The notes beneath the pieces were generated by a model. The model was given only the letters and a program-made list of their open reading frames with translations. It made no database searches and was not told the origin of the DNA. Made by a program: the position numbers and the translations under genes. 30,169 nucleotides of DNA from a virus: the IMG/VR virus record IMGVR_UViG_3300017962_002799, positions 1 to 30,169 of that record, one strand, 5' to 3'. Below are positions 3,733 to 24,606 of this stretch, in pieces. Each line of letters opens with the position of its first letter. Position 1 is the first letter of the stretch.

Positions 3733-4105
3733 CCAAACTGAAAGATTATCTGGTGTTGTACAAAAGGGTTGGGGTTATGAATTAATCTGGGCAACTAACG
3801 ACAAGTATTGTGGTAAAATTATGGTCTTTAAAAATATAGGATCAAAGTTTAGTATGCACTTTCATCGAGAAAAAGATGAAACATGGTTTGTTAACAATGG
3901 ACGATTTAAATTGCGTTGGATTGATACAAATACTGCAACACTTATGGAGGCTGAATTAAAAGAAGGTGATACATGGCATAATCCTCCATTACAACCTCAT
4001 CAACTAGAAGCACTTGAAGAAAATTCTAGTATTACTGAAGTAAGTACAGCAGACAGTGTTGAAGATAATTTTAGAATTATACCTGGAGATAGTCAAAGTG
4101 GATAA
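3719..4105 (+). CDS. Single-domain cupin, phosphomannose-isomerase-like or sugar-modifying
   Basis: A 128-residue cupin. Motif 1 is an exact match to G-x5-H-x-H-x4-E-x6-G (core MHFHREKDETW), which supplies two His and a Glu for a divalent metal. Motif 2 follows with GDTWHNPP and a later PHQ that gives the third His. The overall look (KGWGYELIW near the start, WHNPPLQPHQLEA) resembles mannose-6-phosphate isomerase type II and related sugar-nucleotide cupins. No cupin belongs to the classical ADP-heptose pathway, so this may add a ketose/aldose isomerisation or a side branch. A Shine-Dalgarno-like AGAGGA at 3705-3710 sits 8 bases before the ATG. The gene overlaps hldD by 14 bases and gmhB by 8, placing it inside the operon. 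The fold is sure; the substrate is not. Confidence 0.8.
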   Translation: MQTSNQTERLSGVVQKGWGYELIWATNDKYCGKIMVFKNIGSKFSMHFHREKDETWFVNNGRFKLRWIDTNTATLMEAELKEGDTWHNPPLQPHQLEALEENSSITEVSTADSVEDNFRIIPGDSQSG

Positions 4106-10600: not shown

Positions 10601-11269
10601 ATAATTATTAAAAAACTTTGCACTGTCGTAACTTGCACTATTTCCTTGATAAAGGACATCATATGCTGCTGCTAATAATGCATATTTTACATCTCGTGTA
10701 CATTTGTCAACATCGTGATCGTGCAAAGGATAATTTACATCTACCCAGGCATTAACTTCTGCAGCCATAAAATTTAAATTTTCTATAATTTTAGTATGAG
10801 CTGCTTGTCTATCTGGTGCAACACCTCCTGGAATGGTATATGTTACTGGATTAGCAGCATCTCTACCATTCTGCATAATATTTAGAATTTCATCAATAGA
10901 ACTTCCGATACGTGCATTAAAAGTTGCTTCACTTAATACTTCTGGAATAGCTTGTATTTCTGATTTTGTACGCTCAATTGTTCTAATAACTGTTTTAGAA
11001 ATGTCTAAGCTATTATATTCTGCTAAACCTAAAAAGTATGCATTATAACTAGTTCCTAGTACTGCATCTGCTGCTACACCATCAATAATATATCCAATAT
11101 CTCGTTGACACTTTGTAGCATCAATTACTTCTTGGGCAATGTATTGAGTTGCTTCTGAAATAATAAAGTCTCTATTACTACTTAAAAGACTGTATGCATC
11201 TGGATAAACATAATCGTTTGAGCCTATCCCTGGTTTAAATACGTAATTTTTAATTTGCTTTTTTGCCAT
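4664..11269 (-). CDS. Giant virion structural / fibre protein (2201 residues)
   Basis: Probably a baseplate-attached or fibre component; no enzyme motif seen. The N-terminal third holds three copies of a helical module with the signature CxRD (CQRDIGYIID, CTRDVKYALL, CERDMGYVVD), each preceded by a helix ending near a Trp or Tyr and followed about 20 residues later by a GN or similar turn. This module recurs in the 1688-residue fibre. The middle (nucleotides about 7434-8731) consists of five tandem beta-rich repeats of about 86 residues. Further on are FFIHRPYDGG, IRQSKKYIRYQSGKG and DNEIISY, segments I associate with marine T4-like structural proteins. The last gene of its operon, it starts 3 bases after the 320-residue gene stops. 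Virion role is likely from architecture and company; exact position in the particle is unknown. Confidence 0.75.
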   Translation of the reverse strand: MAKKQIKNYVFKPGIGSNDYVYPDAYSLLSSNRDFIISEATQYIAQEVIDATKCQRDIGYIIDGVAADAVLGTSYNAYFLGLAEYNSLDISKTVIRTIERTKSEIQAIPEVLSEATFNARIGSSIDEILNIMQNGRDAANPVTYTIPGGVAPDRQAAHTKIIENLNFMAAEVNAWVDVNYPLHDHDVDKCTRDVKYALLAAAYDVLYQGNSASYDSAKFFNNYAAAGNTGITAEHQAQTVAAYRHLQTIISDVVQGISVSPSTGNSTPQVTAGLTANSATGTEVSNLIDIVADVVENGTGALPGIRTAPTITLSTAGEQTAYNQILTDKTDIIDAVTWSPTYTYNQEKCERDMGYVVDAYLYDLRYGGNHKLLNTIKYYWEEDVAQVDGNRIPEIDTHNFIGDLILDYIFTNTSWANVGLIPQTVDVSKTTESGAITKITSLVGSTVAVITNGLSSMPAEEETGVGYVKIQGKYQSNTLLLITNTTKNEVIYNFSNSDLGASVTIKDYGDDDDFVKYLQTTDGVTTIELVYNTSTHSATDDIQIFVEEQEVRTRPYDFGTDAIERMRIAPPLSMLDADFEYGLQPTKWSAIATMRGYPSVYEIPGTDTSVSSVVTDASTGTNGVGQSLITVTTAGAHGFDAGTPITIKALENSVSGAARAEGSFVIITVPSSNTFTYYAKAKVGLTSGEVLSTTYTQLRQAGFYTGAAIGKPTFTVISNGYNGTATTELITASGSNKIAFSGDVPEIGAPLTHPSLNTGTQVTGVAGSGGTVVTPTVVGSYGAGVSSIEVASAAGIVPNLSIDRGDGQAIHVASVNGTTINFDGTTTSPIVGNYELYQGVVGVIQQGVGTNATFDVTNTGGVYSVALNTAGTGYQIGDRLTIAGAFLEGDSPTNDIKITVQTVGGSGEILTFTFTGAGFTGTGTISGVSPNVNGGIGADAIIDITYTNNVYSASVATLDTSVDYVVQDRLKITGDVLGGVTPTNDVILVITGVGVNGEITGITASGTAPDASVDYTNVSFSTTGAGVNAQVDVSRIGTIYAVNIPTPGTGYVVNDTITVAGNILGGATPANDVTINVDAVDGVGGITAWSESGVAVNTANYPNQAPTNIVGSGAEFSIDIASSTYTANVTSGGLDYGVGQTFTVLGTDLYGSTTANDLTIEIVSVDVAGTITSVSASGTAVSGSGTFNNSTATNEFALGNGATFDIIRSNNSYTAAVALAGQDYQIGNRILILGSQLDGVDGVNDLLLRVATIGASNSIDSITQDAATGVSGDSVPFISTITISDLSTASIGIGQNITFTALATLEVTFDNAHGLVPGNTFIVDINSGDGVNNHSLASGAFLATVIPDTNKLRYVARAVGNIDTSADSISGVVYPRPDSFFIHRPYDGGVQLGTGGPQHGAQAIRQSKKYIRYQSGKGIMYTTGALFAPSYDLKSVTSNGTEVGSVITVETDDNDHGVQVGGVIRLLGIETPGYNSGNETASPPTFDYEVVNVLDERTFNVLAKRRLGSTNAKLGFSAQMSVVSWHGATVRSGIFDDQNGIFWEYDGTNLSVNQRTGTKQLAGTVSIDVDNNLVVGTNTRFRDQVVAGDRFIIKGMTHVVSHVIDQTTLTVTPDFRGVSNVTAAKANLVSDKKVKQENFNLDRLDGTGPSGYNVDIAKMQMIGIQYSWYGAGFIDFMARGSDGNFVFAHRMRNSNINTEAFMRSGNLPVRYEVTNEGPPGKLVEAMDATQTSLVLEDTSFFPETGFIYIDNEIISYSAKNDTTNTLSGLQRAATLTNFQAGASRDYQAGAAAIHSSGTGVVLISNTITPLISHWGSAFLTDGGFDEDRGYIFSYAESGVEVTTTKQTAFMIRLAPSVSNAIVGDLGERELLNRAQLLLQGLEITSDGVDQSNNSITGGIVVEGILNPQNYPLNPSDVGWSGLSSLAQGGQPSFAQVAAGGSVLWSTGQAATTAQATAQATTNVDLTSIAGGWYSSEVRVSVSEYETLGPVAIGSTVTLVNNNGGTGYILGNTTVTAVNIRNNDVRIRLSQNWIQWIGQGSTFRFSVGADLTNRNFAFLTKASVDSAGIANGTAVTSGGSVSFPASTLVSSITAYEHGTVDYYRITFNNNFNGTLVQGTGTIEFEFVQPPYAQPGETVFSFIAVPGERSTVDFSELKELTNTTLGGRGTFPNGPDVLAINVYKVSGAATNANLILRWGEAQA
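7434..8731 (-). repeat. Five tandem ~86-residue beta-rich repeats within the 2201-residue virion protein
   Basis: Each unit follows the pattern G-x-G/N-A-x-F/V-D-(I/V), then Y-(S/T)-A/V, then GxxY-x-(V/I)-G/N-(D/N)-x-(L/I/F)-x-(I/V)-x-G, then a (P/A)-x-ND-(I/V/L) turn and a T/G-rich strand. Units begin at GTNATFDV, GADAIIDI, GVNAQVDV, GSGAEFSI and GNGATFDI. Boundaries are approximate. The repetition is at protein level and diverged in DNA, so it is an old duplication rather than a fresh tandem array. Confidence 0.8.
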
Positions 11270-12252: not shown

Positions 12253-12260
12253 TATTTATC
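12253..12260 (-). promoter_or_regulatory. Late-type promoter element GATAAATA
   Basis: On the minus strand this reads GATAAATACAATAG, close to the T4 late promoter TATAAATACTATT. It sits 18 bases before the ATG of the 320-residue fibre-like gene. It is one of four exact copies found ahead of structural genes in this window. Confidence 0.6.
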
Positions 12261-12660
12261 ATGGAGTTAATGGTTTCTGATTTCCAAAAAACGATCCTGT
12301 ATGTATAAATCTTGTTCCTGCATAAACCTCAGAAGTTGGACTAGCAAGTAATTCGACACTTGACCCGTTTACAGTAACTGATAGATTTATTAAGTCTACA
12401 CCAAAATTACTTCTAGCATAGATAACTACGTTTGCTACATCAATGCCAGCTGTAACTAGACATTTAAGTATTTCTTTGTGAGTATTGTCATAATCAGCTG
12501 ATATAGTAAATTCTGCGCTAGAAAAATCTCCAAGATACCATTTTTCAACTAATGTATTATTGTATAATTGTTTCCAAGGTCCTTCGTAACTAAACCCCGA
12601 ATTGTTGTTTAATTTTACTGTATTGTTTATACCTGTACTAAACGTAAAATTGTTTGCCAT
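12259..12660 (-). CDS. Small virion protein (133 residues)
   Basis: A small beta-rich protein with no signal peptide, membrane segment or catalytic motif. Features include GPWKQLYNN and KWYLGDFSSAEFTI near residues 27-53, followed by a YARSNFGVDL segment and a Pro-rich end (GNQKPLTP). I associate this style with small structural proteins of marine T4-like phages but cannot name the location in the particle. A late-type GATAAATA element lies 20 bases upstream and an AAAAGGG Shine-Dalgarno sequence about 10 bases upstream. It is the first gene of the minus-strand structural block and follows the halogenase genes directly, so it may also be reached by read-through from them. Confidence 0.6.
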   Translation of the reverse strand: MANNFTFSTGINNTVKLNNNSGFSYEGPWKQLYNNTLVEKWYLGDFSSAEFTISADYDNTHKEILKCLVTAGIDVANVVIYARSNFGVDLINLSVTVNGSSVELLASPTSEVYAGTRFIHTGSFFGNQKPLTP

Positions 12661-12675
12661 AATAGTGATACCCTT

Positions 12676-14175
12676 TTATATATTTATCTTACTAAGAATA
12701 GATCGAATAAGCAAGGTATGATCAACTGCACTGTTAAAAATCTTTGTTTTGTTTTTTGTAACTATTGTATCAGCTTCTAAACACCTGTTGTATAAGTGTT
12801 TGTTTTCGAGATACTTTCTAACAGCGGTAGGATTAAATTTGTTATGATAATATCCAATATTAATAAAACTAAGACTACTAAACATTATTGCAAGGCTGTT
12901 TGAAAAATGAATATCATTTATGAACCCATTAGATAATTGTTTATTTAAATTTTTTAACCACTGGGGTCGATTGTTAGTCATGTATTTCCAAAATTCGCTG
13001 TCAGTCCTGTTTGTATCGTAAAAAAATCTAATATATTGAAATGCATTTTCATAGAAGTTTCTTATTTCTGTGTTAAATACTTCTTGATTAAAGTTTTCCT
13101 CTTCAGAATTTAAATTATACAACTTTGCAAATATTTCTAATTGTATAACTACTAAATGAATTGACGTTGCTTCTAATGGTTCTATAAATCCAGAGCTTAA
13201 CCCAATAGACAAACAATTATTAACCCAAGATTTTTTATGATATCCGTTTTTAAATTTTATAACTCTGTCTGATTGTAATTCTGTATTGTAGTTTTTTAAT
13301 AACCAACTATTAAATTCTTTTTTAGCTTCGTCGTCTGATGTAAACTTAGAAGAATATACATAACCAGTACCGTGTCTATTTGATAAAGGTACATCCAGTA
13401 TCCATCCGTCTTTTGTTGCTTCAGCAGTTGTATAAACAGGTATTGTGTCGAACTCTTTAAACAACGGATTTGGTATTGTCCTATCTGTAGGCAAGTCTTT
13501 TGAAATATCTACCCAATCAGACGTTAACTTGCTTATTAACAACCGTTGGTAACCTGAACAGTCAATAAACAAATCACCAGTTATAGTGTTTCCATTTTTT
13601 AATATTAAAGAATCTATTTTATTATTTTTAAAATTAACAGTTTCAACTACTCCGTCTACTATGTTTAAATAGTCTTTAAATCTCCATTCAATATATCTTC
13701 CTAATTTATTTGCATCTACATGCAATGCATGTCTAAAACTACTGAGATCGTTACTAGGAATTTTATTTGTTTCAAAAAATAAATCATTATAAGATATACC
13801 TTGTTGAAAATTATTGTTTAATATTTCACCTGCTTCTGGTAGATAAAAATCTAAATCTATGTTAGTTAAATCTTCTATATTTTGATTTAAAGGAAAGCTG
13901 TGATATCCAGTAGAATTTTTAGTCCAATTTTTAAACTTTAATCCTAACTTAATAGTAGCGTGGCAGTTTTCTATTAAATCTTGGGTAGTTATTCCGACTC
14001 TTTTTAGATATGTATCAAATATAGGTGTTAAACTTTCTCCGACTCCGATTCCTGGAGAGCTATGATCATAAACAACAGTAACGTCGACTAAATTTCCCCA
14101 GTATGCTTTAAAATATGTTGCAGACATTATACCTGCTGTGCCGCCACCGACGACAATAATTTTATGTGGAGTCAT
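12676..14175 (-). CDS. Flavin-dependent tryptophan-halogenase-like protein (copy A)
   Basis: A 499-residue member of the tryptophan halogenase family. These enzymes use FADH2, O2 and chloride or bromide to make hypohalous acid, which is passed to a catalytic Lys for aromatic halogenation. The FAD-binding GGGTAG motif is at residues 10-15 and GVGES at 44-48. The catalytic Lys equivalent is Lys76 in ATIKLGLKF. The active-site Glu/halide region FIEPLEATS is at 330-338, with Glu335 matching PrnA Glu346. The family hallmark WxWxIP is altered to WILDVP at 258-263, losing the second Trp, so substrate choice or even the reaction may differ. It begins 1 base into the stop of copy B (TAATG), a coupled arrangement. 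It could be a halogenase or a monooxygenase of the same fold. Confidence 0.85.
   Translation of the reverse strand: MTPHKIIVVGGGTAGIMSATYFKAYWGNLVDVTVVYDHSSPGIGVGESLTPIFDTYLKRVGITTQDLIENCHATIKLGLKFKNWTKNSTGYHSFPLNQNIEDLTNIDLDFYLPEAGEILNNNFQQGISYNDLFFETNKIPSNDLSSFRHALHVDANKLGRYIEWRFKDYLNIVDGVVETVNFKNNKIDSLILKNGNTITGDLFIDCSGYQRLLISKLTSDWVDISKDLPTDRTIPNPLFKEFDTIPVYTTAEATKDGWILDVPLSNRHGTGYVYSSKFTSDDEAKKEFNSWLLKNYNTELQSDRVIKFKNGYHKKSWVNNCLSIGLSSGFIEPLEATSIHLVVIQLEIFAKLYNLNSEEENFNQEVFNTEIRNFYENAFQYIRFFYDTNRTDSEFWKYMTNNRPQWLKNLNKQLSNGFINDIHFSNSLAIMFSSLSFINIGYYHNKFNPTAVRKYLENKHLYNRCLEADTIVTKNKTKIFNSAVDHTLLIRSILSKINI
12681..12688 (-). promoter_or_regulatory. Late-type promoter element GATAAATA
   Basis: On the minus strand this reads GATAAATATATAAA. 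It lies over the 3' end of halogenase copy A and 20 bases ahead of the 133-residue virion gene. It would give the structural block its own late start, independent of the halogenase operon. Confidence 0.6.
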
Positions 14176-15629
14176 TAGCTTTCTCTTATAAGTTTTAAAA
14201 ATTCTTTATGTGTAATAAAATCTTCATTAGGATCATATTCTTTTTTTAAATTTGTCCAAACATTGTTTGCATCAAATTTAATATCATTAGGTAATGAGTC
14301 AAACTCTTCTTTAATTTTAGAAATATTAAAATGTTCAACACCGTGTGCAACCATCAAAAAATGTAATGCTTTAAATAACACATATTTTGAATCTAAGTCA
14401 AAATCCATTTCACAAGGAAGTCTATTTTTCCATAAATCCATTTTTTGTTGTAAACTATTTGGAACAGGCAAATTAGCAACCTTTTTCCAAAACTCTGTAT
14501 CTCTACGTTTACATTGGAAATGAAAAACAATAAAGTCTCGGATGTTTTCTACTACAGATCTATAAGACTTATTATATTGGTCGATTGCTTCTTGATCATA
14601 ATTTGGTATTGAATTAATGAGCATAAAAACCTGTTGTATTGTAGCACCAATGCTTGACGCTTCTAGAGGTTCTATAAAACTAGAACTAAGACCAACAGCA
14701 CAACAATTATTGATCCATGTTTTATCTAATGCACCAGGATCAAACTTTATGTGTTTTCCGATAGTTATTTCATATCCCAGTGTTTCCTCAATTTCTTGTT
14801 TTGCCTGATCCGGTGTTAAAAACTCACCGTCATAAATGTATCCGTTACCCCAGCGTCCGTATGTTGGTGTCCTAAACATCCAGCCATATTTCATACCTTT
14901 AGCCAGTGACCACATGTTATAATTTTCAGTGTCTGGTGTTTGAAAAACTATTGCATTATTAGTTGGTAAAAATTCTTTATGCGACACCCATTTAGCACCA
15001 AGCGAAGTAATTAGTAGTTTTTTAAATCCTGTGCTATCAATGTAAAAATCATATCTATACGCAGAATCTTTGCTACGTAATTCTACTATATTACCAGACT
15101 TGTCATGTGTTATATCAGTAATTTCGTCATCAATAATTTTAACACCTTTTTCTAATGCTTTTTTTGTTAAAAACTGATTTAATTTAAATGTGTTAAAGTG
15201 GTATTGTGCAACTGGGGATACATTATTTTTAACATACCAAGTATTAATTTTATTTTCCCAAAACGATTTACTTGATAAATTATCCGAATGTACATTTTCT
15301 TTTATAATATTACCGTAAATGTATGGATATTCATTTTGTAATTGAAGATTATAACCATCTTGTATACTGTGCATATATGTTGGAACTCCCCAGTCTTCAA
15401 ACATAATTCCAATTTTAAAAGTTGCATCAGTTTCTTTAATAAGTTCTTCGTTAGATATTCCTACGTAATCTGCAAAAGTTTGCCAGTGTTCTGTTGATCC
15501 TTCACCTACACCTATAATTCCAATTTTGTCTGATTTTACAAGATCAACATCACTATACGGAAATCTAGTTTTTATAATCAAAGCAGAGACTAATCCTGCT
15601 GTGCCGCCACCGACTATACAAAAGTTCAT
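14175..15629 (-). CDS. Flavin-dependent tryptophan-halogenase-like protein (copy B)
   Basis: A 484-residue paralogue of copies A and C. I choose ATG 15629 over the in-frame TTG at 15641. GGAGGAAGAA directly precedes the ATG with ideal spacing, and the FAD motif then starts at the normal place (VGGGTAG, residues 6-12). GVGEGS is at 40-45. The Lys72 in ATFKIGIMF corresponds to the catalytic Lys of PrnA, and FIEPLEASS at 318-326 includes the conserved Glu323. The WxWxIP hallmark is replaced by WMFRTP at 250-255, even further from consensus than copy A. Its start overlaps the stop of the 2OG oxygenase gene as ATGA, and its stop touches copy A. Halogenation is possible but unproven; a flavin-dependent oxidation is an alternative. 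Confidence 0.85.
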   Translation of the reverse strand: MNFCIVGGGTAGLVSALIIKTRFPYSDVDLVKSDKIGIIGVGEGSTEHWQTFADYVGISNEELIKETDATFKIGIMFEDWGVPTYMHSIQDGYNLQLQNEYPYIYGNIIKENVHSDNLSSKSFWENKINTWYVKNNVSPVAQYHFNTFKLNQFLTKKALEKGVKIIDDEITDITHDKSGNIVELRSKDSAYRYDFYIDSTGFKKLLITSLGAKWVSHKEFLPTNNAIVFQTPDTENYNMWSLAKGMKYGWMFRTPTYGRWGNGYIYDGEFLTPDQAKQEIEETLGYEITIGKHIKFDPGALDKTWINNCCAVGLSSSFIEPLEASSIGATIQQVFMLINSIPNYDQEAIDQYNKSYRSVVENIRDFIVFHFQCKRRDTEFWKKVANLPVPNSLQQKMDLWKNRLPCEMDFDLDSKYVLFKALHFLMVAHGVEHFNISKIKEEFDSLPNDIKFDANNVWTNLKKEYDPNEDFITHKEFLKLIRES

Positions 15630-16300
15630 TTCTTCCTCCAAATAGATTCGACATTGGGTTTTATTTGTAAATTACCAGCTACACTTATTCTATAATCATC
15701 TGAAGTGTAAAACGGATTAACACTATGATTTAATTTTGACGGAAAGAAAACTAAATGTCCTTCGAGATCTCGGTCTGCAGGAATACTGTAAAGACCTAAA
15801 TTTCCTAAAATATCTGTATAATGAAATGTAAACTTTGATGTTCTATTTTCTCCGTTTACTATAGGGTATATTGCTTCTTCATCTTTATGATTAAAAGGCA
15901 AATTTAACCAAATAACAAAACTGTAAACACCAGCATGATGGTGCATAGGATTAAACTCGTGTTTTTTTTGGAAATTAACCCAATATCCGTCTAAAGTTAA
16001 ATCAAAACCTATTTTACCGCTCATAACGCCACTTACAGTTGAAACATAGTTATATCTATTATTATACTGCTGGCCTATTTCTAAAAGGAACGGTTCTAGA
16101 AAAGGTTTGCTTTTTTCTAAAGTATACTCGTTATTAATATGTCCAACTAAATTATGTCGGTTATCAACTGCTTTTTCAAAGTCTTCTTGTACTTCTTGTA
16201 CTTCTTTTTTAATTTCATTGAGTATTTCTGTCGGCACTTTACAAACAACAAATCCTAAGTTTGCTGGTTCATGAAAATTTATTTCAACTTCTTCTTCCAT
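15626..16300 (-). CDS. 2-oxoglutarate/Fe(II)-dependent oxygenase
   Basis: A 224-residue protein with the double-stranded beta-helix fold of 2OG oxygenases, of the sort placed in the PF13759/TIGR02466-like group. The iron facial triad is likely His120 and His122 in NPMHHHAG, plus His192 in KLNHS. Arg204 in DDYRISVAGN is placed to bind 2-oxoglutarate. The long segment between them (VIWLNLPF, then FFPSKLNHS) is typical. It is the first gene of the minus-strand tailoring operon, with a Shine-Dalgarno AGAGGAA at 16306-16312. Its stop overlaps the start of halogenase copy B, so the two products are made together and may act on the same target. Substrate is unknown; protein side chains, sugars and small aromatics are all possible for this group. 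Confidence 0.8.
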   Translation of the reverse strand: MEEEVEINFHEPANLGFVVCKVPTEILNEIKKEVQEVQEDFEKAVDNRHNLVGHINNEYTLEKSKPFLEPFLLEIGQQYNNRYNYVSTVSGVMSGKIGFDLTLDGYWVNFQKKHEFNPMHHHAGVYSFVIWLNLPFNHKDEEAIYPIVNGENRTSKFTFHYTDILGNLGLYSIPADRDLEGHLVFFPSKLNHSVNPFYTSDDYRISVAGNLQIKPNVESIWRKK

Positions 16301-16321
16301 TTAGATTCCTCTTATACAAAT

Positions 16322-16329
16322 TATATATC
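16322..16329 (-). promoter_or_regulatory. Degenerate late-type element GATATATA for the 2OG/halogenase B/A operon
   Basis: It differs from GATAAATA by one base and lies 21 bases before the ATG at 16300, the same distance as the four exact copies. A TATAAT on the minus strand (16325-16320) overlaps it, so a sigma-70 reading is also possible. Confidence 0.35.
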
Positions 16330-16334
16330 AGATC

Positions 16335-16366
16335 TTGATATTAAAGAACAATGATACTGATAATTA
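16335..16366 (+). promoter_or_regulatory. Candidate promoter for the plus-strand tailoring operon
   Basis: Two readings overlap. TTGATA (16335-16340), an 18-base gap and GATAAT (16359-16364) make a fair sigma-70 pair. Alternatively GATAATTA at 16359-16366, one base from GATAAATA, lies 18 bases before the ATG at 16385, the late-promoter distance. TAGGAGT just before the ATG is the ribosome site. Confidence 0.35.
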
Positions 16367-16384
16367 TTAATATTAGGAGTACAT

Positions 16385-17983
16385 ATGCCAGAAATTAAAA
16401 AAATAACAGTAGTAGGAGGAGGAAGTGCAGGATGGATGACTGCTGCAACTCTTATTAAATTTTTTCCAGAAAAAGAAATTACGGTAATCGAAAGTTCTAA
16501 TATACCAACTGTTGGCGTTGGCGAAAGCACACTAGGTGGCATACGTTACTGGATGTCTGCTCTTGATATTGATGAAGAAGATTTTATGAAACATACAAAT
16601 GCTTCTTACAAGTTAAGTATTAAATTTACCGACTTTTATGAAAAAGATTATGGTTCATTTCATTACCCATTTGGAACTCCTTGCACCGATGACACACCTG
16701 CAGGTTTAACTGACTGGCAAGCTAAAAAAGCATTGTATCCGGAAACACCTGTCGAGGATTATTGTAAAACTTATTATCCTTCAATGCCATTTGTTGAAAA
16801 CAATAAGTTTCCAACTGATTGGTCTGACTTAGAACCTTTTAGAAAAGATACTGATGTTGCTTATCACATGGACGCTGCACTATTCGGAAAATGGCTTAAA
16901 GAAAACTATTGTATACCTAAAGGTGTAAAACATATAGATGACGAAGTTGTTTCTATAGAAACAAGTAATCACGGCATTGATAACTTAACATTAAAAACAC
17001 TAGGCAAACACAATGCTGACTTATATATCGACTGTACTGGATGGAAAAGTTTACTATTAGGAGAAGCATTAAGTGAGCCTTTTGAATCGTTTAATCATAT
17101 TATTCCTAATAACAAAGCATGGGCAACCCAATTGCCTTATGTTGATAAAGAAAAAGAAATTGAGCCGTACACTAATTGTACAGCAATAAACAACGGTTGG
17201 GTTTGGAATATCCCTTTATGGAGTAGATTAGGAACAGGATATGTTTATAGCGATAAGCACATCTCTCAAGAAGATGCATTAGAAGAATTTAAACAACATC
17301 TTATGAGTGACAAAATGACTGTACCACGCACACCCGACGAAGTTGAAGCTCTTACATTTAGACCTATTAATATGCGTATTGGTATACATGAACGCACCTG
17401 GGTTAAAAACGTTGTAGCAATAGGTTTAAGTGCAGGATTTATCGAGCCGTTAGAATCAAACGGATTATTTACTGTACACGAATTTTTATTAATGTTAGTA
17501 AGCGTATTACAGCGAGGTTATGGCACACAGTGGGATCGTGATGTTTATAATACCGCAACTAGAAACCTTTATGAAAACTTTGCAGAATTTGTAGCACTAC
17601 ACTATGCGTTGTCTATAAGAGAAGATACCCCCTATTGGCAAGATGTTAAAAACAAAAGTTTCAGTCCTAATATGGTTAAACAAATACCAACAATTAACAA
17701 AGGATTTGCATATCTAGCAAACAAAAAAATGTTTGATTTTAAACACGATATAGAAGGTGGCACGCATTGTGTTGCTACTGGAATGAACTATTTTGTGTTT
17801 AATATTCTTAACGTATTACATGCAGAAAAAACTTATGGCATTAGTGTTAAAGATACTGTAGATACTTTTGTTAATCAGCGTCAAGAAAGAATTAATTTAT
17901 GGGAGAAAAGAGCTAACAGTTCACCAATACTTTCTAACTATTTAAAAGAGAATATCTATAATGACACAACAGATTCCGACTGA
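16385..17983 (+). CDS. Flavin-dependent tryptophan halogenase (copy C, canonical motifs)
   Basis: A 532-residue protein and the only one of the three with every halogenase hallmark. GGGSAG is at residues 11-16 and GVGEST at 44-49. NASYKLSIKF holds Lys76 (catalytic Lys in the family), the WVWNIP motif is at 272-277, and GFIEPLESNG at 351-360 includes Glu357 next to the halide site. In known enzymes a separate flavin reductase provides FADH2 and the product is a chlorinated or brominated aromatic ring. No flavin reductase is in the window, so one would have to come from the host or from elsewhere in the phage. Residues about 85-150 form an insertion with PFGTPCTDDTP, likely near the substrate pocket. 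It opens the plus-strand operon and overlaps the next gene by 23 bases. Confidence 0.9.
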   Translation: MPEIKKITVVGGGSAGWMTAATLIKFFPEKEITVIESSNIPTVGVGESTLGGIRYWMSALDIDEEDFMKHTNASYKLSIKFTDFYEKDYGSFHYPFGTPCTDDTPAGLTDWQAKKALYPETPVEDYCKTYYPSMPFVENNKFPTDWSDLEPFRKDTDVAYHMDAALFGKWLKENYCIPKGVKHIDDEVVSIETSNHGIDNLTLKTLGKHNADLYIDCTGWKSLLLGEALSEPFESFNHIIPNNKAWATQLPYVDKEKEIEPYTNCTAINNGWVWNIPLWSRLGTGYVYSDKHISQEDALEEFKQHLMSDKMTVPRTPDEVEALTFRPINMRIGIHERTWVKNVVAIGLSAGFIEPLESNGLFTVHEFLLMLVSVLQRGYGTQWDRDVYNTATRNLYENFAEFVALHYALSIREDTPYWQDVKNKSFSPNMVKQIPTINKGFAYLANKKMFDFKHDIEGGTHCVATGMNYFVFNILNVLHAEKTYGISVKDTVDTFVNQRQERINLWEKRANSSPILSNYLKENIYNDTTDSD

Positions 17984-18575
17984 GATTTACCCTTTATTTT
18001 CGCAGCCTGTGTTTGTCGTTAATAACGACAAAACTCCGCATCAAGATGCTATTGATTTTTTAAAGTCGTTAGACAGTCGTAAAAATTCAGGTGGCAATTT
18101 TTCAACCTGGGAAGATAACATACTTGAATTGCCAGAATTTTCTGAAATTAAAAGTCAAATTGTCACAGCGGTAACAGAGTTTACAAATCATATTATGGGG
18201 TGGACTACTACTGATTTTTATATTACACAATCGTGGGGTAATGTAAATCCAAAAGATACAACACATCACATACACTATCATTATAACAGTGTTGTTAGTG
18301 GAACATTTTATTTACAAACAGGAACAGAAGATCATATTGTATTTTATAACGATCCTAAGCCAATGTTAGACTTTGAAAAGACACATTTCAATATATACAA
18401 TGCATCCAGTTATAAAGTGCCTGTAAGTACAAACACTATTGCAGTGTTTCCTTCTACTTTAATGCACAGCGTAGATCAAAATAAAGATGATTGGGAGCGA
18501 ATTAGTATAGCATTTAATGTCTTTGTTAAAGGACCAATAGGATCAAGAGAAGCATTAACATATTTAGAGTTATAA
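17961..18575 (+). CDS. 2-oxoglutarate/Fe(II)-dependent oxygenase, TIGR02466-like
   Basis: A 204-residue 2OG oxygenase. PLFSQPVFV near the N-terminus and SWGNVNPKDTTHHIHYH around residues 91-107 are typical of the TIGR02466/PF13759 group. The iron ligands are likely His105 and His107, followed by SGTFYL, with His169 in STLMHSVDQ as the distal ligand and Arg180 in WERISIAFN for 2-oxoglutarate. It starts at ATG 17961, which has an AAAAGAG stretch upstream, and overlaps the halogenase copy C gene by 23 bases in another frame. Pairing of a halogenase with a 2OG oxygenase is thus repeated on both sides of the divergent promoter region. The distal segment differs clearly from the 2OG protein at 15626-16300, so this is not a recent duplicate. 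Confidence 0.85.
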   Translation: MTQQIPTEIYPLFSQPVFVVNNDKTPHQDAIDFLKSLDSRKNSGGNFSTWEDNILELPEFSEIKSQIVTAVTEFTNHIMGWTTTDFYITQSWGNVNPKDTTHHIHYHYNSVVSGTFYLQTGTEDHIVFYNDPKPMLDFEKTHFNIYNASSYKVPVSTNTIAVFPSTLMHSVDQNKDDWERISIAFNVFVKGPIGSREALTYLEL

Positions 18576-18581
18576 TTGATA

Positions 18582-19517
18582 ATGATAAAATTTGATACAG
18601 CATTTAATATTAATGGCGGGGCAGGAAGGGTATTGTGTTCAATACCTGCACTAGAACAGTACGAACAAGAAAATCCAGACGATAATTTTATTGTAGTAGT
18701 TGATTACGGAACTGAACTTTTTATTTCTCATCCTACACTTCACAAAAGAGTGTACGACTGGCGACATAAAAATTTATTTACAGATATTATTGAAGATATG
18801 AATTATTTGCAGCCTGAACCATATCACGTAAGAGAGTATTATACACAACAATGTTCTATTTCTCAAGCGTTTGATATTGCTATTAATAAAAAAGGTATAA
18901 GAAATTTGCCTCCGGCAAATTTAATACTTACAAGAGACGAAGATCAAAGTGCAAAAGAAACAATAAAAAATATTAAATCTGATCGTAAAAATAAAAAAAC
19001 AATTGTTTTTCAGCCTTTTGGAAGGGGTTCTGATTTAGAACCAGATAGAGTAAATCTCGACCCTTACGGAAAATCCTTCTCAATAAATGATGCTGTTAAG
19101 ATTATCAACAAGTTACAAGAAAAATATACAGTAATTGTTATGGTCGAAAAACAGTTAGATTTTAATGAGTTAGGATGTAAAGACGTACCAGCACAAATAC
19201 CAAATTTAAATCTACGTCAATGGGCAGGTATAATAAAACATGCCGACTATTTTTTAGGATGCGACAGCGTAGGTCAACACATAGCACACAGTATGAATAA
19301 AAAATCAACTGTTATACTAGGAAGTACATTTGCAATTAATGTTACTTACCCAGAATACAAAACATTTGATATAATTGATTTTGGCGAAGGTAAAAAAATG
19401 TATAGTCCATTAAGAATGTGTTATGACGAAGTTGCTGATATTAATAATGAACGATTAATGGATTTAGATAACGATAAGTTGTTGTTAATTGTAGATTCAG
19501 TTAGTAAAAATATCTGA
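18582..19517 (+). CDS. GT9-like glycosyltransferase (heptosyltransferase-like, ADP-heptose family)
   Basis: A 311-residue GT-B fold protein similar in outline to LPS heptosyltransferases. The N-terminal GAGRVLCSIPAL (residues 14-24) corresponds to the GDVLxTLPAL stretch of WaaC. The C-terminal domain has WAGIIKHADYFLGCDSVGQ followed by HIAH and TVILGSTF (about 214-250), the nucleotide-binding GT9 signature. The residue matching the catalytic Asp13 of WaaC appears to be Arg16. I choose ATG 18582 over the in-frame TTG 18576. The heptose genes at 1769-4667 could supply its donor, which is the main link between the two ends of the window. The acceptor could be LPS or a protein, as for the bacterial adhesin heptosyltransferases. 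Family placement is good; donor and acceptor are inferred. Confidence 0.75.
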   Translation: MIKFDTAFNINGGAGRVLCSIPALEQYEQENPDDNFIVVVDYGTELFISHPTLHKRVYDWRHKNLFTDIIEDMNYLQPEPYHVREYYTQQCSISQAFDIAINKKGIRNLPPANLILTRDEDQSAKETIKNIKSDRKNKKTIVFQPFGRGSDLEPDRVNLDPYGKSFSINDAVKIINKLQEKYTVIVMVEKQLDFNELGCKDVPAQIPNLNLRQWAGIIKHADYFLGCDSVGQHIAHSMNKKSTVILGSTFAINVTYPEYKTFDIIDFGEGKKMYSPLRMCYDEVADINNERLMDLDNDKLLLIVDSVSKNI

Positions 19518-19525
19518 GGTAATTT

Positions 19526-21346
19526 ATGAAAACAGGTTGGATAGCAGCAATTGCTAGAGGACATAATTCGGGTGTATGCTTACTTAAAGACGGAAAAGTA
19601 ATTTTTTCTATTGAAGAAGAACGCCTAAGTCGAATTAAGTACGACGGCGGTCCTTATGCATCTATGGTTAAAATTTTAGAATATACAGACAAAATTGATT
19701 ATTTGTTTATAGCACACACTCAGTCGTTAAAGGACACAGCAGGACAAGTTGATTTTACTGGCGATGACGTTTATACTGGATTAGCAAGAAAATTAGGACT
19801 TATCGAACAAAGAGATGTTCCGTATGAGCATCCTCAAGTCATTGATTTAAGCCACATGCACCATAAATTACATTCTGCTTGTGCGTTTTATCGATCAGGA
19901 TTTGATAAAGCAGTAAGTGTCATTGTAGACGGTGCTGGAACATTTATTCCTATGAATATTAATGGCGAAGACCATATGACATGGGAACTTGAAAGTATTA
20001 TTAATTGTAATTATCCTGCAAAATTTACTACTCTTTATAAACACCAAGGAGGCAGAGGTCCTTACCTTAGTAAACATATACCTAACATGGCATCTGATGA
20101 TTTTAACGAACAAGATAGTACACACGAATTATTTTTAGATGATAGTGCAGGCATAGTTAAAGCATACGAAGCAGTAACACAATATTGCGGATGGCAACCA
20201 ATTGAAGCTGGAAAAACTATGGGGCTATTTCCATATGGTAAACCTAATGATAGAATTCCTCAAATTTACACAGACGGCAATGGTGGTAAATGGAGGACTT
20301 CTGATCGTAATGTAATTATTCCTACATACCCTAATGGTGCATTAGTTAACGAAGGAAGATATGAAGAACTGACAACAGACGAATCTGTAAATGACTTAAC
20401 TTTATTACAAAATAGACGAGATTTAGCATATGCTGTACAAACTCAAAGTCAAGCAGAAGTACTAAGACTTATTCGAAAAGCTGTTGCTATGTCAGGATGT
20501 AAAAATGTAGTACTTAGCGGAGGATATGGACTAAACTGTGTTGCTAATTATTGGTATTTAGGACAATTAAAAGACGAAGGTATTAATTTTTATGTAGAAC
20601 CAATATCTAACGATGCAGGTACAGCAATGGGTGCAGCATTACTAGGATATCATTCACTAACTGACGACAATAACGTTAGAGAGTATGCAGATAGTTTATA
20701 TTTAGGACCACAATACACTTATACTAATGACGAAATTGTTCTAACAGCAAAAAAATATAATGCAGAAATTCAAACCGTTACTAAGAAAGATGTAGTTGAA
20801 CTTATGACAGGTAAAGTAACCGGTAATAGAAATATTGTTACTATGTTTCAAGGACGTTCAGAAAACGGGCCTAGAGCACTAGGTAACAGAAGTATTATGT
20901 ATGATGCAACTGATCCGGATGGCAAAGACTTTGTAAACAAAGTAAAACGCCGTGAATATTTCCGTCCATTTGCAGGTAGTATCCTACATGAGTTTGCACA
21001 CGAATGGTTTGACATGAGGGGTATGGATCAAAGCCCGCACATGATGTACGCTATGAACTGTCAGCCAGGTGTTGCTGAAAAGATTCCTAGTATTATTCAT
21101 GTAGATGGTACATGTCGTATTCAAACAGTAAAGCGTGAACAAAATCCTCATTACTATGATATAATTAAAGAATTATATGAGCAAACCGGTGTACCTATTG
21201 TGTTTAATACTTCGTTTAATCTAGGGGGAGAACCGTTAGTTGAAACCTTAGACGATGCTATACGTACACTTGCTAATAGCGACATTGAGTATCTATATTT
21301 GCCAGAATATAACAAACTAATAACAGTTAGGAATATTAATGATTAA
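19526..21346 (+). CDS. Carbamoyltransferase, NodU/CmcH/TobZ family
   Basis: A 606-residue O-carbamoyltransferase. These proteins couple a Kae1-like N-terminal domain, which transfers carbamoyl from carbamoyl-adenylate, to a YrdC-like C-terminal domain that makes that intermediate from carbamoyl phosphate and ATP. SGVCLLKDGKVIFSIEEERL opens the N-terminal domain. The metal site is His112/His116 in MHHKLHSA and Asp135 in VDGAG. GRSENGPRALGNRSI (about 445-460) and RREYFRPFAGSI follow, and FNTSFNLGGEPLV lies near the end. Known substrates are hydroxyl groups on sugars or antibiotics (Nod factors, tobramycin, cephamycin). Carbamoylation of the sugar moved by the adjacent GT9 protein is a reasonable but untested guess. 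GAGGT precedes the ATG, and its end overlaps the next gene by 8 bases. Confidence 0.9.
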   Translation: MKTGWIAAIARGHNSGVCLLKDGKVIFSIEEERLSRIKYDGGPYASMVKILEYTDKIDYLFIAHTQSLKDTAGQVDFTGDDVYTGLARKLGLIEQRDVPYEHPQVIDLSHMHHKLHSACAFYRSGFDKAVSVIVDGAGTFIPMNINGEDHMTWELESIINCNYPAKFTTLYKHQGGRGPYLSKHIPNMASDDFNEQDSTHELFLDDSAGIVKAYEAVTQYCGWQPIEAGKTMGLFPYGKPNDRIPQIYTDGNGGKWRTSDRNVIIPTYPNGALVNEGRYEELTTDESVNDLTLLQNRRDLAYAVQTQSQAEVLRLIRKAVAMSGCKNVVLSGGYGLNCVANYWYLGQLKDEGINFYVEPISNDAGTAMGAALLGYHSLTDDNNVREYADSLYLGPQYTYTNDEIVLTAKKYNAEIQTVTKKDVVELMTGKVTGNRNIVTMFQGRSENGPRALGNRSIMYDATDPDGKDFVNKVKRREYFRPFAGSILHEFAHEWFDMRGMDQSPHMMYAMNCQPGVAEKIPSIIHVDGTCRIQTVKREQNPHYYDIIKELYEQTGVPIVFNTSFNLGGEPLVETLDDAIRTLANSDIEYLYLPEYNKLITVRNIND

Positions 21347-21848
21347 ACATTTTGAAAACTTTGCACCTACATGGTTACATAATAGAGCAAAGAATCAATT
21401 GTTGTCTCCATTAATTGATTGGCATTATCCAGGTTTTGGTGGACATAATATTACACTAGACAAAGCATGTTTTGCTAAACAACCTTTTAATATTGCAACT
21501 AACTACGAAGATTGGTCAAATGTAGATTCTTTAATGTATATGTTAGACTGGTGGATTGATGATAACAAAGAATGGTTTCAGTTTGAAGGGTTAAATCGTT
21601 GTTTAATTAATTTTTATACCCCTGGGCAAAGTACAGGCTGGCATACAGATCACGAGTCTAGTAATTTTTTTAGTTTATTATACTATGTAAATGAAAGCGA
21701 CGGTGGCACAATGTTTGAAGATAAAAAAATAATGCATAAAGAAAACAGTGCAATATTATTCAATTCCACTACTCCACATTCTCCTATATTATCTAAAGCG
21801 CCAAGGCGCATTAATGTAAATTGGATTATGGGAGGAAAATTGTTATGA
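21339..21848 (+). CDS. 2OG/Fe(II) oxygenase, prolyl-4-hydroxylase-like
   Basis: A 169-residue compact 2OG oxygenase. The triad is a canonical HxD...H: His102 and Asp104 in GWHTDHE, His147 in TTPHSPI, with Arg156/157 in PRRINVNW for 2-oxoglutarate. LLYYVNESDGGTMF between them is typical of prolyl hydroxylase/AlkB-like families (PF13640-like). It uses HxD where the other two 2OG proteins in the window use HxH, so it is a separate lineage. It starts 8 bases inside the carbamoyltransferase gene and is the last gene before the bidirectional terminator. Substrate is unknown; protein, sugar or nucleobase targets are all possible. Confidence 0.82.
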   Translation: MIKHFENFAPTWLHNRAKNQLLSPLIDWHYPGFGGHNITLDKACFAKQPFNIATNYEDWSNVDSLMYMLDWWIDDNKEWFQFEGLNRCLINFYTPGQSTGWHTDHESSNFFSLLYYVNESDGGTMFEDKKIMHKENSAILFNSTTPHSPILSKAPRRINVNWIMGGKLL

Positions 21849-21887: not shown

Positions 21888-21914
21888 AAAAAAACCCGCT
21901 TAACGCGGGTTTTT
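21888..21914. terminator. Bidirectional Rho-independent terminator
   Basis: A perfect 10-base-pair stem AAAAACCCGC (21890-21899), loop TTAAC, GCGGGTTTTT (21905-21914). The plus-strand reading ends in five Ts and the minus-strand reading in seven (21888-21894). It lies between the converging tailoring operon and tail-fibre operon and serves both. It is the only strong terminator I found in the window. Confidence 0.92.
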
Positions 21915-21915
21915 A

Positions 21916-22446
21916 TTATTCAGGATCTGGTGCTGGGGCTTGTTCCCACTTACCACCAATACCGGAACCATCTAATGGACCCGGCGGTGTTGGCCAATCA
22001 ATTTCTTCTGGGCTTGACATGTTTGCTAGATCATTATCATCTGTTATAGATCTTAAAGCAGCTCTATAAGTAGCCCATGCTGCTTTATCTTCATCAGATA
22101 ACGGACTGTCGTTCATTTGAGTCCAATCTGTTTTAAATAAACGTTGTTCTCTTGGGCCAAGAATCCAACGGCGAACTTTTTCAGCAACATCAATAGTTTC
22201 TACAATCCACTCTCTTTCATATGTACCGTCATCATTTTTAATAATGTTGTCAGTACCTTCCCAGTTTTTATCTGTACCTGTTCCAATAACGTCTGGATCT
22301 GGACCATGTGGATGCAGTACTTCAGCATATCCATTTTCTGTTAAAAGTTCAGAAGTGATCTCTTTTGTACCTAAAATATATTCTAGATTTTCAGGAAGTA
22401 TCATTCCGCTTATTGGATCACCGTTTTCGTCAATTTTTACATACAT
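21916..22446 (-). CDS. Tail-assembly chaperone-like protein (Phage_tail_APC type)
   Basis: A 176-residue protein. Its C-terminal part (REQRLFKTDWTQMNDSPL, about residues 100-117, then AAWATYRAALRSI and EIDWPTPPG) matches the phage tail-assembly chaperone domain I know as PF16778. These proteins help fibre or adhesin subunits fold and trimerise. It is encoded just downstream of the glycine-rich adhesin, as T4 gene 38 lies downstream of fibre gene 37, which supports pairing with that adhesin. The N-terminal half (MYVKIDENGDPISGM) is variable in such proteins. The C-terminus is Pro-rich and acidic. The gene is the last of its operon, directly before the terminator. Confidence 0.75.
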   Translation of the reverse strand: MYVKIDENGDPISGMILPENLEYILGTKEITSELLTENGYAEVLHPHGPDPDVIGTGTDKNWEGTDNIIKNDDGTYEREWIVETIDVAEKVRRWILGPREQRLFKTDWTQMNDSPLSDEDKAAWATYRAALRSITDDNDLANMSSPEEIDWPTPPGPLDGSGIGGKWEQAPAPDPE

Positions 22447-22463
22447 GTTATAATCTTCCTATA

Positions 22464-24248
22464 TTATTGATCAGCTGTACCTGTTGATGGCCATTCTCGG
22501 TTTGGACCCCAAATAATACGGACAGCACCTTTACCACCCCAGCCGCCGCCGTGCGATGTGCCGCCACCGCCGCCACCGCCGCCAAAGCAGCCGCCGCAGC
22601 TATATCCGTTTCCTCGCCCGTTTGACCACGGTTCGCCTGGCCTACCACAAGTACCACCAGAACCGCCTTGGCCGCCTGATCCAGTTTGGTGTGAGTATCC
22701 TGGGTTACCACATGCTCCGTTAGCTCCTTGACCATAAATGCCGGTGCCGCCACCGCCACCTGTTCCATAAGTCGAACTATGGTGACTTGTAGCACTGCCG
22801 CCACCACCATAACAGCCTGTATAACCTGAATTGTTTGTATTTCCTCGGTTGGGGCCGTAGCCAGCGCCGCCGCCTCCGCCTCCAGCGGTGTTTGGATATG
22901 CGACTGTGCCGCAGCCGCCGCCTGCATTACCATTAATACTTGCAGTAACAACACAACAACCCGGACAACAACCACATCTGCCGCCACCGCCTATTACACC
23001 TGGAAAACAACTATAACCTCCGCCGTTGGCGTTCCAACAGCCACCGCGGCCTACTTTAATTGTATAGCTTTGACCTGGTGTTACAGGAATTCCGTTAGCC
23101 CATGCTAATCCTCCTCCGGCTCCGCCGCAAGCTGCCCAGTCATAACGACCGCCGGATCCTGCGCCAATTGCAGCTACGCCTACAGATGTTACACCTGAAG
23201 GTGCTGTCCATGTATAAGTATCTTCGCCACCGTTTGTACTACTATTTGATCCAGTATACAATTGTTGACCAATTGGAGGTGTAATTGTTAACTGGTAAGT
23301 AAATGTTCTATCAACACTAAATGTATTAGCTGTTGCTCTAATAGTAAAGTTATAGTTATATGTTTGATCTGGAGTATCGCTTGAATTACCTGTAATTGCA
23401 CCAGTATTGGCATTTAAGGTTGTACCTCCTGGCAAGCTACCAGATACTAAACTATATGTAATTGCTCCTGATCCAACTGTAGCTGTTACTTGTAAACTAA
23501 TACTGGTCCCGGAAGATATTGTTGCAGATCCTAAATTTGTTGCTGTACTCCAGGTTGGGACAGAGTTTGTTAATGAAACTCCTAGTACAAAGTTAATCTT
23601 TTTAATTCCGCTGCCATCGTCTACTTGGATTGGTATAGTATAAGATGATTCTGTAGCAGTCGACAACGAACCGCTTAAAACACCTGCAGAAGTTAATGAT
23701 AAGCCAATTGGAAGAGTTTCTAGTGCTGTAAAGGTTAATGGAGCACTGGATGCAGAAGTTGCATAACCTTCAGCAACAAGGTCAATATTAATTGAAGAGT
23801 TTTTATTATATGTTCCTAAATCGTTATTAGTAGCAATATTTGTTGAACCCCAATATAATCCACCGGTATAACCATCTGATGTTAAAACAGTTCCATCTGA
23901 TCCAGTTTTATCTGGCAGATTTTCCCAAACTGCATAATAATTAGTTCCGTCTGACTGAACTCCGAGTGTAAACCCGTCTTCAATAACAACCGTATTTGTA
24001 TCGTTTCCACTAGGACCTTTAAAAAATCCTGATGGTGTTTGCACTGTAACATCACCGCCGGTGTTATTCCAATAGTATGAATTAACTGCAACAAACGAAG
24101 CTGGATTTGGTAATATAACTGTGTACGGTGCTGCGCCTGTAAGTTGCACAACCTGTCCACTTTGTAAGTATGTTTCAGTTGTAGCGCCGGTTATTTTTCT
24201 AGGTGTGCCGGAACCTGCTCCTGAACTGTTGTTTAACCTTCTTCCCAT
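22464..24248 (-). CDS. Glycine/cysteine-rich receptor-binding adhesin
   Basis: A 594-residue fibre-tip protein. Residues about 20-150 form a beta-rich attachment region. About 165-325 look like two putative Ig-like domains of the He_PIG type (PLTFTALETLPIGLSL and, later, TYSLVSGSLPGGTTLN). From about residue 345 to the end is a Gly-rich domain that begins YTWTAPSGVTSVGVAAIGAG and includes VTPGQSYTIKVGRGG. It resembles the Gly_rich_2 type (PF21722) and, in general, the polyglycine-rich tips of phage adhesins. It carries about 14 cysteines, unusual for a phage fibre, which may form disulfides or bind metal. The Gly-rich part (about 22500-23225) is much richer in GC than the rest of the window because GGC codons are common. 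A late-type promoter element precedes the gene and the chaperone gene follows. Confidence 0.78.
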   Translation of the reverse strand: MGRRLNNSSGAGSGTPRKITGATTETYLQSGQVVQLTGAAPYTVILPNPASFVAVNSYYWNNTGGDVTVQTPSGFFKGPSGNDTNTVVIEDGFTLGVQSDGTNYYAVWENLPDKTGSDGTVLTSDGYTGGLYWGSTNIATNNDLGTYNKNSSINIDLVAEGYATSASSAPLTFTALETLPIGLSLTSAGVLSGSLSTATESSYTIPIQVDDGSGIKKINFVLGVSLTNSVPTWSTATNLGSATISSGTSISLQVTATVGSGAITYSLVSGSLPGGTTLNANTGAITGNSSDTPDQTYNYNFTIRATANTFSVDRTFTYQLTITPPIGQQLYTGSNSSTNGGEDTYTWTAPSGVTSVGVAAIGAGSGGRYDWAACGGAGGGLAWANGIPVTPGQSYTIKVGRGGCWNANGGGYSCFPGVIGGGGRCGCCPGCCVVTASINGNAGGGCGTVAYPNTAGGGGGGAGYGPNRGNTNNSGYTGCYGGGGSATSHHSSTYGTGGGGGTGIYGQGANGACGNPGYSHQTGSGGQGGSGGTCGRPGEPWSNGRGNGYSCGGCFGGGGGGGGTSHGGGWGGKGAVRIIWGPNREWPSTGTADQ

Positions 24249-24285: not shown

Positions 24286-24606
24286 TTAAACTGAACTAGT
24301 TTCAATGCCCATTGCAACTGCAGAGCATGAAGTTGCACTAGATCTAACTACTAAAAGTTTTCCAGCTTGCATTACTATGCCGGTTCTTTCTAATACGTTT
24401 TTAGGAAGTATTGTAGCTTCAAATTCAATAAATTCATCGTTAGTAGGTGTTGCTGCGTCACACACTGCAACTCTAACTGTTATAGGGTCAGTACCTCTGT
24501 TAACCATGTTAACAGCGGCTACTGTAAATGTATCGACAGGGCAAGTATATAATGTTGTATCTGCGCCTGCACTAAGGTCTGATGTACCTAAAATTCCTGT
24601 TGCCAT
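24286..24606 (-). CDS. Small virion-associated protein (106 residues)
   Basis: A 106-residue beta-rich protein. No domain recognised. It opens ATGILGTSDLSAGADTTLY and contains VNMVNRGTDPITVRVAV, which looks like a decoration or fibre-collar fold of beta strands; three cysteines are present. Its position between the long fibre gene and the adhesin, both structural and on the same strand, argues for a structural role, perhaps linking the two. GGAGAG precedes the ATG. No late-type element lies directly upstream, so it probably shares the transcript of the 1688-residue gene. Confidence 0.6.
   Translation of the reverse strand: MATGILGTSDLSAGADTTLYTCPVDTFTVAAVNMVNRGTDPITVRVAVCDAATPTNDEFIEFEATILPKNVLERTGIVMQAGKLLVVRSSATSCSAVAMGIETSSV

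Follow-up and report, generated by a model that had tools for sequence, protein, structure and literature searches.

The window analysed here, 30,169 nt from an aquatic phage (IMG/VR record IMGVR_UViG_3300017962_002799, positions 1 to 30,169), carries between two blocks of tail fibre genes an island of eight genes encoding three flavin-dependent halogenases (P0001, P0002 and P0004, i.e. halogenases 1, 2 and 3, also P1, P2 and P4), three 2-oxoglutarate (2OG) Fe(II) oxygenases (P0003, P0005 and P0008), a GT9-fold transferase (P0006) and a carbamoyltransferase (P0007). We propose, with a probability of a little under 0.6, that the island performs post-translational tailoring of tail fibre proteins by enzymes apparently co-transcribed with the fibre genes. 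Judging from the sequences, heptosylation and carbamoylation are the best supported modifications, and fibre residues may also be halogenated. The backbone is, by its marker genes, of the jumbo-phage type (gp15-NUDIX, as in PA5oct), with fibres and tailoring genes resembling those of Kyanoviridae cyanophages.

Organization of the island

The initial annotation of this DNA, made from the letters alone, had described eight tailoring genes in two divergent operons flanked by fibre genes. All eight open reading frames (ORFs) are full-length and agree with their Pfam and PHROG matches, the junctions within the two units are tight or overlapping (-23 to +8 bp), and fibre families are recognized on both flanks. 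Its left edge, set at position 12,676, has to be moved, as the minus-strand unit runs on into the fibre genes P0015, P0014 and fibA (P0016). Junctions along this 2OG-halogenase-halogenase-P0015-P0014-fibA unit are -16, -1, 15, 24 and 2 bp, and because they span only -16 to +24 bp, the oxygenase and two halogenases are probably co-transcribed with the three fibre genes. A plus-strand HldE-HldD-cupin-GmhB run at 1769-4667, which would belong to the same pathway, had also been overlooked. The island and its fibre genes are:

4664-11269, minus: fibA (P0016), 2201-aa virion/tail fibre protein, proposed substrate; 45-48% identical to a virion structural protein of S-CAM1 and AG-345-P14
11272-12234, minus: fibre protein P0014; no family match, its place between fibA and P0015 conserved across many loci
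12259-12660, minus: fibre-associated protein P0015; conserved position adjoining carbamoyltransferase or fibre genes
12676-14175, minus: flavin-dependent halogenase 1, P0001 (PF04820, 4.7e-89); WxWxIP reads WILDVP; catalytic K and E kept
14175-15641, minus: flavin-dependent halogenase 2, P0002 (PF04820, 3.6e-92); WxWxIP reads WMFRTP; catalytic K and E kept
15626-16300, minus: 2OG-Fe(II) oxygenase P0003, Oxy_5/phrog_81 type (PF13759, 2.3e-9; phrog_81, 6e-28); HxH...H...R
16385-17983, plus: flavin-dependent halogenase 3, P0004, VirX1-like (PF04820, 4.1e-107; PDB 6qgm, VirX1, 4.6e-107); WxWxIP intact
17961-18575, plus: 2OG-Fe(II) oxygenase P0005, Oxy_5/phrog_81 type (PF13759, 4.9e-18; phrog_81, 1.3e-40); HxH...H...R
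18576-19517, plus: GT9-fold glycosyltransferase P0006, virus-restricted, by model fold (phrog_8954, 1.4e-117, full-length)
19526-21346, plus: O-carbamoyltransferase P0007, NodU/CmcH/TobZ type (PF02543 and PF16861, N and C domains, 7e-27 and 2e-57; PDB 7xb6, 6.6e-54; TobZ, 3e-42)
21339-21848, plus: 2OG-Fe(II) oxygenase P0008, Oxy_3 type (PF13640, 9.4e-7; phrog_274, 7e-22); canonical HxD...H...R
21890-21914, no strand: symmetrical GC-rich stem with flanking A/T runs, a likely bidirectional terminator between the plus-strand unit of the island and the converging fibre-tip operon
21916-22446, minus: tail fibre assembly chaperone (PF16778, 4e-13; phrog_4912, 1.9e-14)
22464-24248, minus: glycine-rich fibre tip/adhesin, proposed substrate of the halogenase-2OG arm (He_PIG, 3e-13; phrog_4474, 1.6e-32)
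24286-24606, minus: short tail fibre protein (phrog_11338, 1.3e-9)
24622-29688, minus: 1688-aa fibre with seven CBM5/12 repeats (PF02839, 1.3e-41)

T4 late promoters (TATAAATA), considered as support for late expression, were ruled out, with 0 copies in the window where shuffles predict 6.1; a generic promoter scan of the window gave 98 matches against a shuffled expectation of 81, which is near expectation.

Linkage of the tailoring genes to fibres

Linkage was examined with profiles built from the window and from cyanophage seeds and run over fetched loci. Both GT9 and carbamoyltransferase are present in 48 of 49 loci picked by fibA alone and holding at least 3 kb upstream; when loci are picked by GT9, carbamoyltransferase is found in 77/80 and a fibre family in 77/80, the three without a fibre family being short contigs. 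Among phage records, 12 of the 12 with a strong fibA match have GT9, and the next 8 fibA records are without it. In 66 of 98 P0015 instances, which count some contigs twice, the first labelled gene upstream on the same strand is the carbamoyltransferase.

Jumbo markers are found in 18 GT9 loci and a heptose gene order of the cyanophage type in another 18, with none having both; as far as these markers tell, the cassette and its fibre are found together on unrelated backbones, jumbo and cyanophage. The cyanophage matches are in S-CAM1 for fibA (45%), in S-CAM3 for GT9 (50%) and in Sf-FS3 and S-SSM7 for the carbamoyltransferase (69-70%), and fibA, GT9 and carbamoyltransferase are also neighbours in S-CAM1 and S-CAM3. 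The GT9-carbamoyltransferase pair and the heptose genes lie between the fibre block and gp13-15 in S-SSM7 and Sf-FS3, and adjoin fibre genes in P-SSM2.

On the other side of the island, loci with a full-length tip gene carry a halogenase and/or a carbamoyltransferase past the chaperone where the sequence goes on, and a halogenase is found there wherever it extends far enough, in four distinct lineages. Within the GT9 loci, tip and halogenase are associated with a Fisher p of 0.0025, on small numbers and among related phages.

A 345,369 bp relative (G003) carries the same kind of island. The same arrangement also occurs in two further assemblies, with 99.9% identity over the stretch (the samples may be related), so it is no assembly accident; additional contigs have the left part in common with the window. 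At the DNA level, a search with the island gave no match among 50,697 phage records. The initial annotation had asked whether the same gene set sits beside fibre genes elsewhere, and the answer is positive both for GT9 with carbamoyltransferase and for the halogenase trio. Its suggestion of a dedicated pathway finds good support, the pathway being tied to fibre genes; the concentration of tailoring genes is not unique, since isolated cyanophages have comparable clusters, one of them published in 2021 (PMC7824862).

The GT9-fold transferase and the carbamoyltransferase

P0006 belongs to phrog_8954, which is annotated as of unknown function. Because a sequence search of PDB with the GT9 profile gave no match, fold comparison was used. 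The AlphaFold2 model (pLDDT 91.6, 43 sequences in the alignment) matches the GT-B fold of GT9 enzymes (3tov, 1.2e-9), with TM scores of 0.61 to TibC with and without ADP-heptose and of about 0.52 to WaaC/WaaF (WaaC 0.53). TibC heptosylates protein, and WaaC and WaaF act on lipopolysaccharide (LPS). The modelled fold thus fits an ADP-heptosyltransferase and leaves the acceptor undecided, since the protein-acting and the LPS-acting enzymes are all of the GT9 type.

The family has at least 548 viral matches against 7 in 84,980 species genomes, all 7 in contigs of marine metagenome-assembled genomes (MAGs). Fibre families are present in six of these loci; the remaining one, of 6.5 kb, holds GT9, carbamoyltransferase and 2OG genes only. 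The phage contigs L352-L358, of which one is 335 kb long, were apparently assigned to bins of marine MAGs (Neomarinimicrobiota, Euryarchaeota, Rhodobacteraceae, Flavobacteriales).

P0007 has both domains of its family and the metal-binding HHxxH, which, like D135, is invariant in alignment A2.

Heptose genes

The left part of the window appears to encode most of the ADP-heptose route (HldE, GmhB and HldD types), and ADP-heptose would be the donor:

1769-2908, plus: HldE-like bifunctional heptose-7-phosphate kinase/heptose-1-phosphate nucleotidyltransferase in one ORF (NF008454, 5e-88; TIGR02199, 9e-50; neither reaching its curated cut-off), with recognizable TGAGD and HxGH motifs
2905-3732, plus: HldD-like ADP-heptose 6-epimerase (TIGR02197, 3e-72, below cut-off; PDB 1eq2, 1.4e-45); YxxxK visible
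3719-4105, plus: cupin, phrog_7851, kept in cyanophage heptose clusters; 36-38% identical to copies in S-SSM7, Sf-FS3, P-SSM2 and S-CAM3
4101-4667, plus: GmhB-like HAD heptose-bisphosphate phosphatase (NF006506, 1.6e-39, below cut-off); ORF listed from GTG 4056

Protein family scans of the window found no GmhA isomerase, whose supply by the host is assumed. In cyanophages the label 'phosphoheptose isomerase' sits on a short HAD-like protein. PA5oct gp323, considered as a homologue of the GmhB-like gene, is not homologous.

Halogenases and 2OG oxygenases

All three halogenases have the GxGxxG FAD motif and match PF04820. The catalytic lysine (PrnA K79) is present in 126 of 127 aligned halogenases, with one gap, and the glutamate (E346) in 127/127, window copies included. 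The second W of WxWxIP is lost in the P0001 and P0002 clades, replaced by L or F. The closest solved structures are VirX1 of cyanophage Syn10 for P0004 and PrnA for P0001; P0004 also weakly matches QhpG and LodB, enzymes that act on protein tryptophans.

The three halogenases form three separate, well-supported lineages whose members occur together in divergent phages (all three in L098 and L344, P0001 with P0002 in L345, P0001 with P0004 in L097); on this evidence the trio is an inherited set rather than a product of recent duplication. At the most, four halogenases and eleven 2OG-like genes share an island between NUDIX and the fibre block (L063). Six IMG/VR loci (L056, L063, L064, L030, L035, L075) bring 3-4 halogenases together with 7-11 2OG-like oxygenases in a single slot by the fibres, with neither GT9 nor carbamoyltransferase within the stretch covered. 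The idea of a halogenase in every fibre island was rejected: the gene is optional.

P0003 and P0005 read HxH...H...R, as their family does as a rule, instead of HxD/E...H...R, the ligands being invariant in 122 relatives. The 48 ORFs drawn from three of the islands between NUDIX and the fibre block and from the VirX1 neighbourhood, three fibre genes included, belong mostly to 2OG-type Pfam families (17 Oxy_5, 14 Oxy_3, plus JmjC, Cupin_8, PhyH and DUF6445). DUF6445/phrog_7084 proteins recur amid halogenase and 2OG genes in L030-L064. Some PHROG labels (window:21339-21848, L004:21960-22514, L004:26055-26390) seem misleading: phrog_274, 'DNA endonuclease V', covers HxD...H...R 2OG oxygenases, and some 'ferrochelatase' and 'minor coat protein' labels likewise fall on 2OG-like genes.

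Fibre tailoring and its alternatives

In the proposed mechanism the phage would supply most of the ADP-heptose pathway, with GmhA coming from the host, and the GT9-fold transferase would put heptose on the fibre protein. Following glycosylation, the carbamoyltransferase would cap a sugar hydroxyl. The 2OG oxygenases would hydroxylate fibre residues, some of them perhaps attachment points, and three non-redundant flavin halogenases would halogenate aromatic residues of fibres or tip. The likely gain would be changed adhesion, changed stability, or escape from host surface variation.

Several observations weigh against this proposal. The matches of HldE, HldD and GmhB, strong as they are, stay under the NCBIfam cut-offs, and P0006 itself falls short of the Pfam GT9 cut-off (5.4e-4, 19.8 bits against 22). 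LPS heptosyltransferases have the GT9 fold too. Nor is the heptose arm universal: in the 345-kb G003 its genes sit at a distance from the island, and the 223-kb G009, which has GT9, carbamoyltransferase and fibA, gave no HldE match. Several 2OG genes and one divergent halogenase lie elsewhere in related genomes, and since 2OG genes occur there too, we do not claim that the island is enriched in them relative to the remaining genome. The linkage counts are not independent, because many of the compared loci come from related phages. Finally, halogenases occur in only 5 of the 80 GT9 loci, so that two arms are separable: the heptose-GT9-carbamoyltransferase arm goes with fibA and the halogenase-2OG arm with the tip and CBM fibre side, the window having both.

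The alternative that survives best, although we consider it unlikely, is remodelling of the host surface, in which ADP-heptose, GT9 and carbamoyltransferase would put carbamoylated heptose on LPS or capsule, e.g. for superinfection exclusion. GT9 includes the LPS heptosyltransferases WaaC and WaaF, both matched by the P0006 fold; Sullivan et al. 2010 named these LPS genes (PMC3037559), and decoration of the capsule was one of the proposals of Iyer et al. 2021 (PMC7824862). However, the GT9 family hardly occurs in cellular genomes, goes with a single fibre family (48/49) and lies within an apparent fibre operon in many loci, and the halogenases and multiple 2OG oxygenases would be left unexplained.

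Somewhat less probable is a diffusible halogenated, carbamoylated sugar or amino-acid metabolite, a toxin or antibiotic, as explicitly predicted for the S-SSM6a cluster (PMC7824862). Halogenase and carbamoyltransferase families are typical of antibiotic pathways, but scanning of the window proteins turned up no ligase, assembly-line, resistance or transporter gene; the linkage to fibres is tight on two backbones, and a halogenase trio with up to 11 2OG-like enzymes resembles site-specific protein modification.

Slightly less credence still is given to independent cargo, i.e. a hypervariable fibre hotspot that gathers genes, from which the linkage could stem and which would make proximity uninformative on substrate. 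Slot contents do differ between phages, and both 2OG and heptose genes are also found elsewhere in genomes; against this stand the near-obligate fibA-GT9-carbamoyltransferase linkage across two backbones, with conserved order and overlapping reading frames, and the retention of the halogenase trio in divergent phages. Hypermodification of phage DNA is very improbable: the window has one glycosyltransferase and three 2OG oxygenases, kinds of enzymes that hypermodify DNA in other phages, but no modified-base synthesis gene was seen among its scanned proteins, the island adjoins fibre genes, and we know of no DNA-modification route using GT9 with ADP-heptose. Of the four targets that the initial annotation had left side by side, namely virion, host glycan, DNA and a small molecule, fibres of the virion are the one that the evidence favours, though it does not prove them.

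Comparison with known systems

Iyer et al. 2021 (PMC7824862) described one cyanophage cluster (S-SSM6a), for which secondary metabolite synthesis or capsule decoration was predicted. This 10-gene cluster of S-SSM6a/S-SSM7 resembles the window in bringing together carbamoyltransferase, halogenase, 2OG oxygenases, cupin and HAD phosphatase, in having the same GT9 and heptose genes, and in its location between tail fibre and neck genes. It differs in having one halogenase, two carbamoyltransferases and a methylase, whereas the window has three halogenases, a set split by fibre genes, HldE as a single ORF and a jumbo-type backbone; no HemK-like methylase was found among the scanned window ORFs. 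This kind of cluster is thus already described in part, and what is new is a different reading of its function, open to test.

VirX1 of Syn10 (PDB 6QGM) is a relative of P0004 with the same motifs, and in its locus lie another halogenase, about nine 2OG-like genes and, adjoining them, a fibre family. Unlike the window, the Syn10 stretch has no GT9 or heptose genes, and the window adds two halogenase lineages with altered WxWxIP. Earlier ideas on viral halogenases range from antibiotic protection to secondary metabolites: a 2010 review (PMC2984593) treats antibiotic protection by prnA as speculative, and a review of VirX1 (PMC8407142) names no natural substrate for these enzymes.

In Sullivan et al. 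2010 (PMC3037559), LPS genes were reported to occur together, and both carbamoyltransferase and prnA were listed in a table. The cyanophage LPS cluster T4-GC 304/305/307/308 of that study, whose function was left open, comprises a heptose kinase, a nucleotidyltransferase, a cupin and an epimerase, the set seen at 1769-4105; in the window these are linked to GT9 and fibres.

Protein heptosyltransferases of the TibC/AAH type share with P0006 the predicted GT9 fold, and ADP-heptose genes are present in the window; the TibC type is an iron-containing dodecamer that acts on protein, and the likeness is of fold only, with about 9% identity and no CxxC-type cysteine pairs visible in P0006. We know of no halogenation or carbamoylation in mycobacteriophage virion glycosylation. 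As far as its citation in PMC12619734 conveys, that system (Freeman et al. 2023) has a phage transferase decorating virion proteins, which is the mode proposed here, with other enzymes than those of the window. A tie of the genes discussed here to tail fibres was not found in the accessible literature, most subscription papers being outside the search.

Backbone and neighbouring genes

Two backbone genes precede the heptose genes:

61-1299, plus: gp15-like tail sheath stabiliser, truncated at its 5' end by the edge of the window (PF16724, 1.5e-17; phrog_11196, 2e-53); backbone marker
1308-1742, plus: NUDIX hydrolase (PF00293, 1.9e-14); outside the island

The best tblastn matches of gp15 are the jumbo phages Phosso, Atu_ph07, PA5oct and SCTP-2; a cyanophage-type gp15 was not found, the best 20 matches being jumbo phages of other hosts, with cyanophages not among the groups named. 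The NUDIX gene is 43% identical to the PA5oct NUDIX adjoining gp15, and because it is a backbone gene it was dropped as a member of the pathway. Left of the window, extended sequence encodes two tube proteins and a 1105-aa sheath in the same layout as in Phosso and Atu_ph07. That the window comes from an ordinary cyanophage was dropped once gp15 and these left neighbours proved to be of the jumbo type.

Beyond the window (L095:5247-16158), two similar gp7-like baseplate wedge proteins and a 1572-aa fibre come next; the wedge protein searched from L095 matches cyanophages, though the tail core is jumbo-type. In Atu_ph07 (L092:31909-38070), three radical SAM genes lie near the corresponding tail region, perhaps another modification system.

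Implications

More tentatively, mobile cassettes of fibre plus tailoring genes might be common to aquatic jumbo phages and cyanophages, and virions with halogenated, hydroxylated and carbamoyl-heptosylated fibres might include halogenated virion proteins, the first of their kind. As many as four halogenases and about 11 2OG-like oxygenases might act at different fibre sites, which might also be the natural role of VirX1-type halogenases; we hold this wider picture to be possible and rather doubtful.

If fibre tailoring is the correct reading, phrog_8954, formerly without an assigned function, gains a likely activity, and phages would use chemistry as well as sequence variation to diversify the proteins with which they recognize hosts. 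The linkage to fibres on unrelated backbones makes the question of the substrate of viral halogenases directly testable in fibre peptides of virions.

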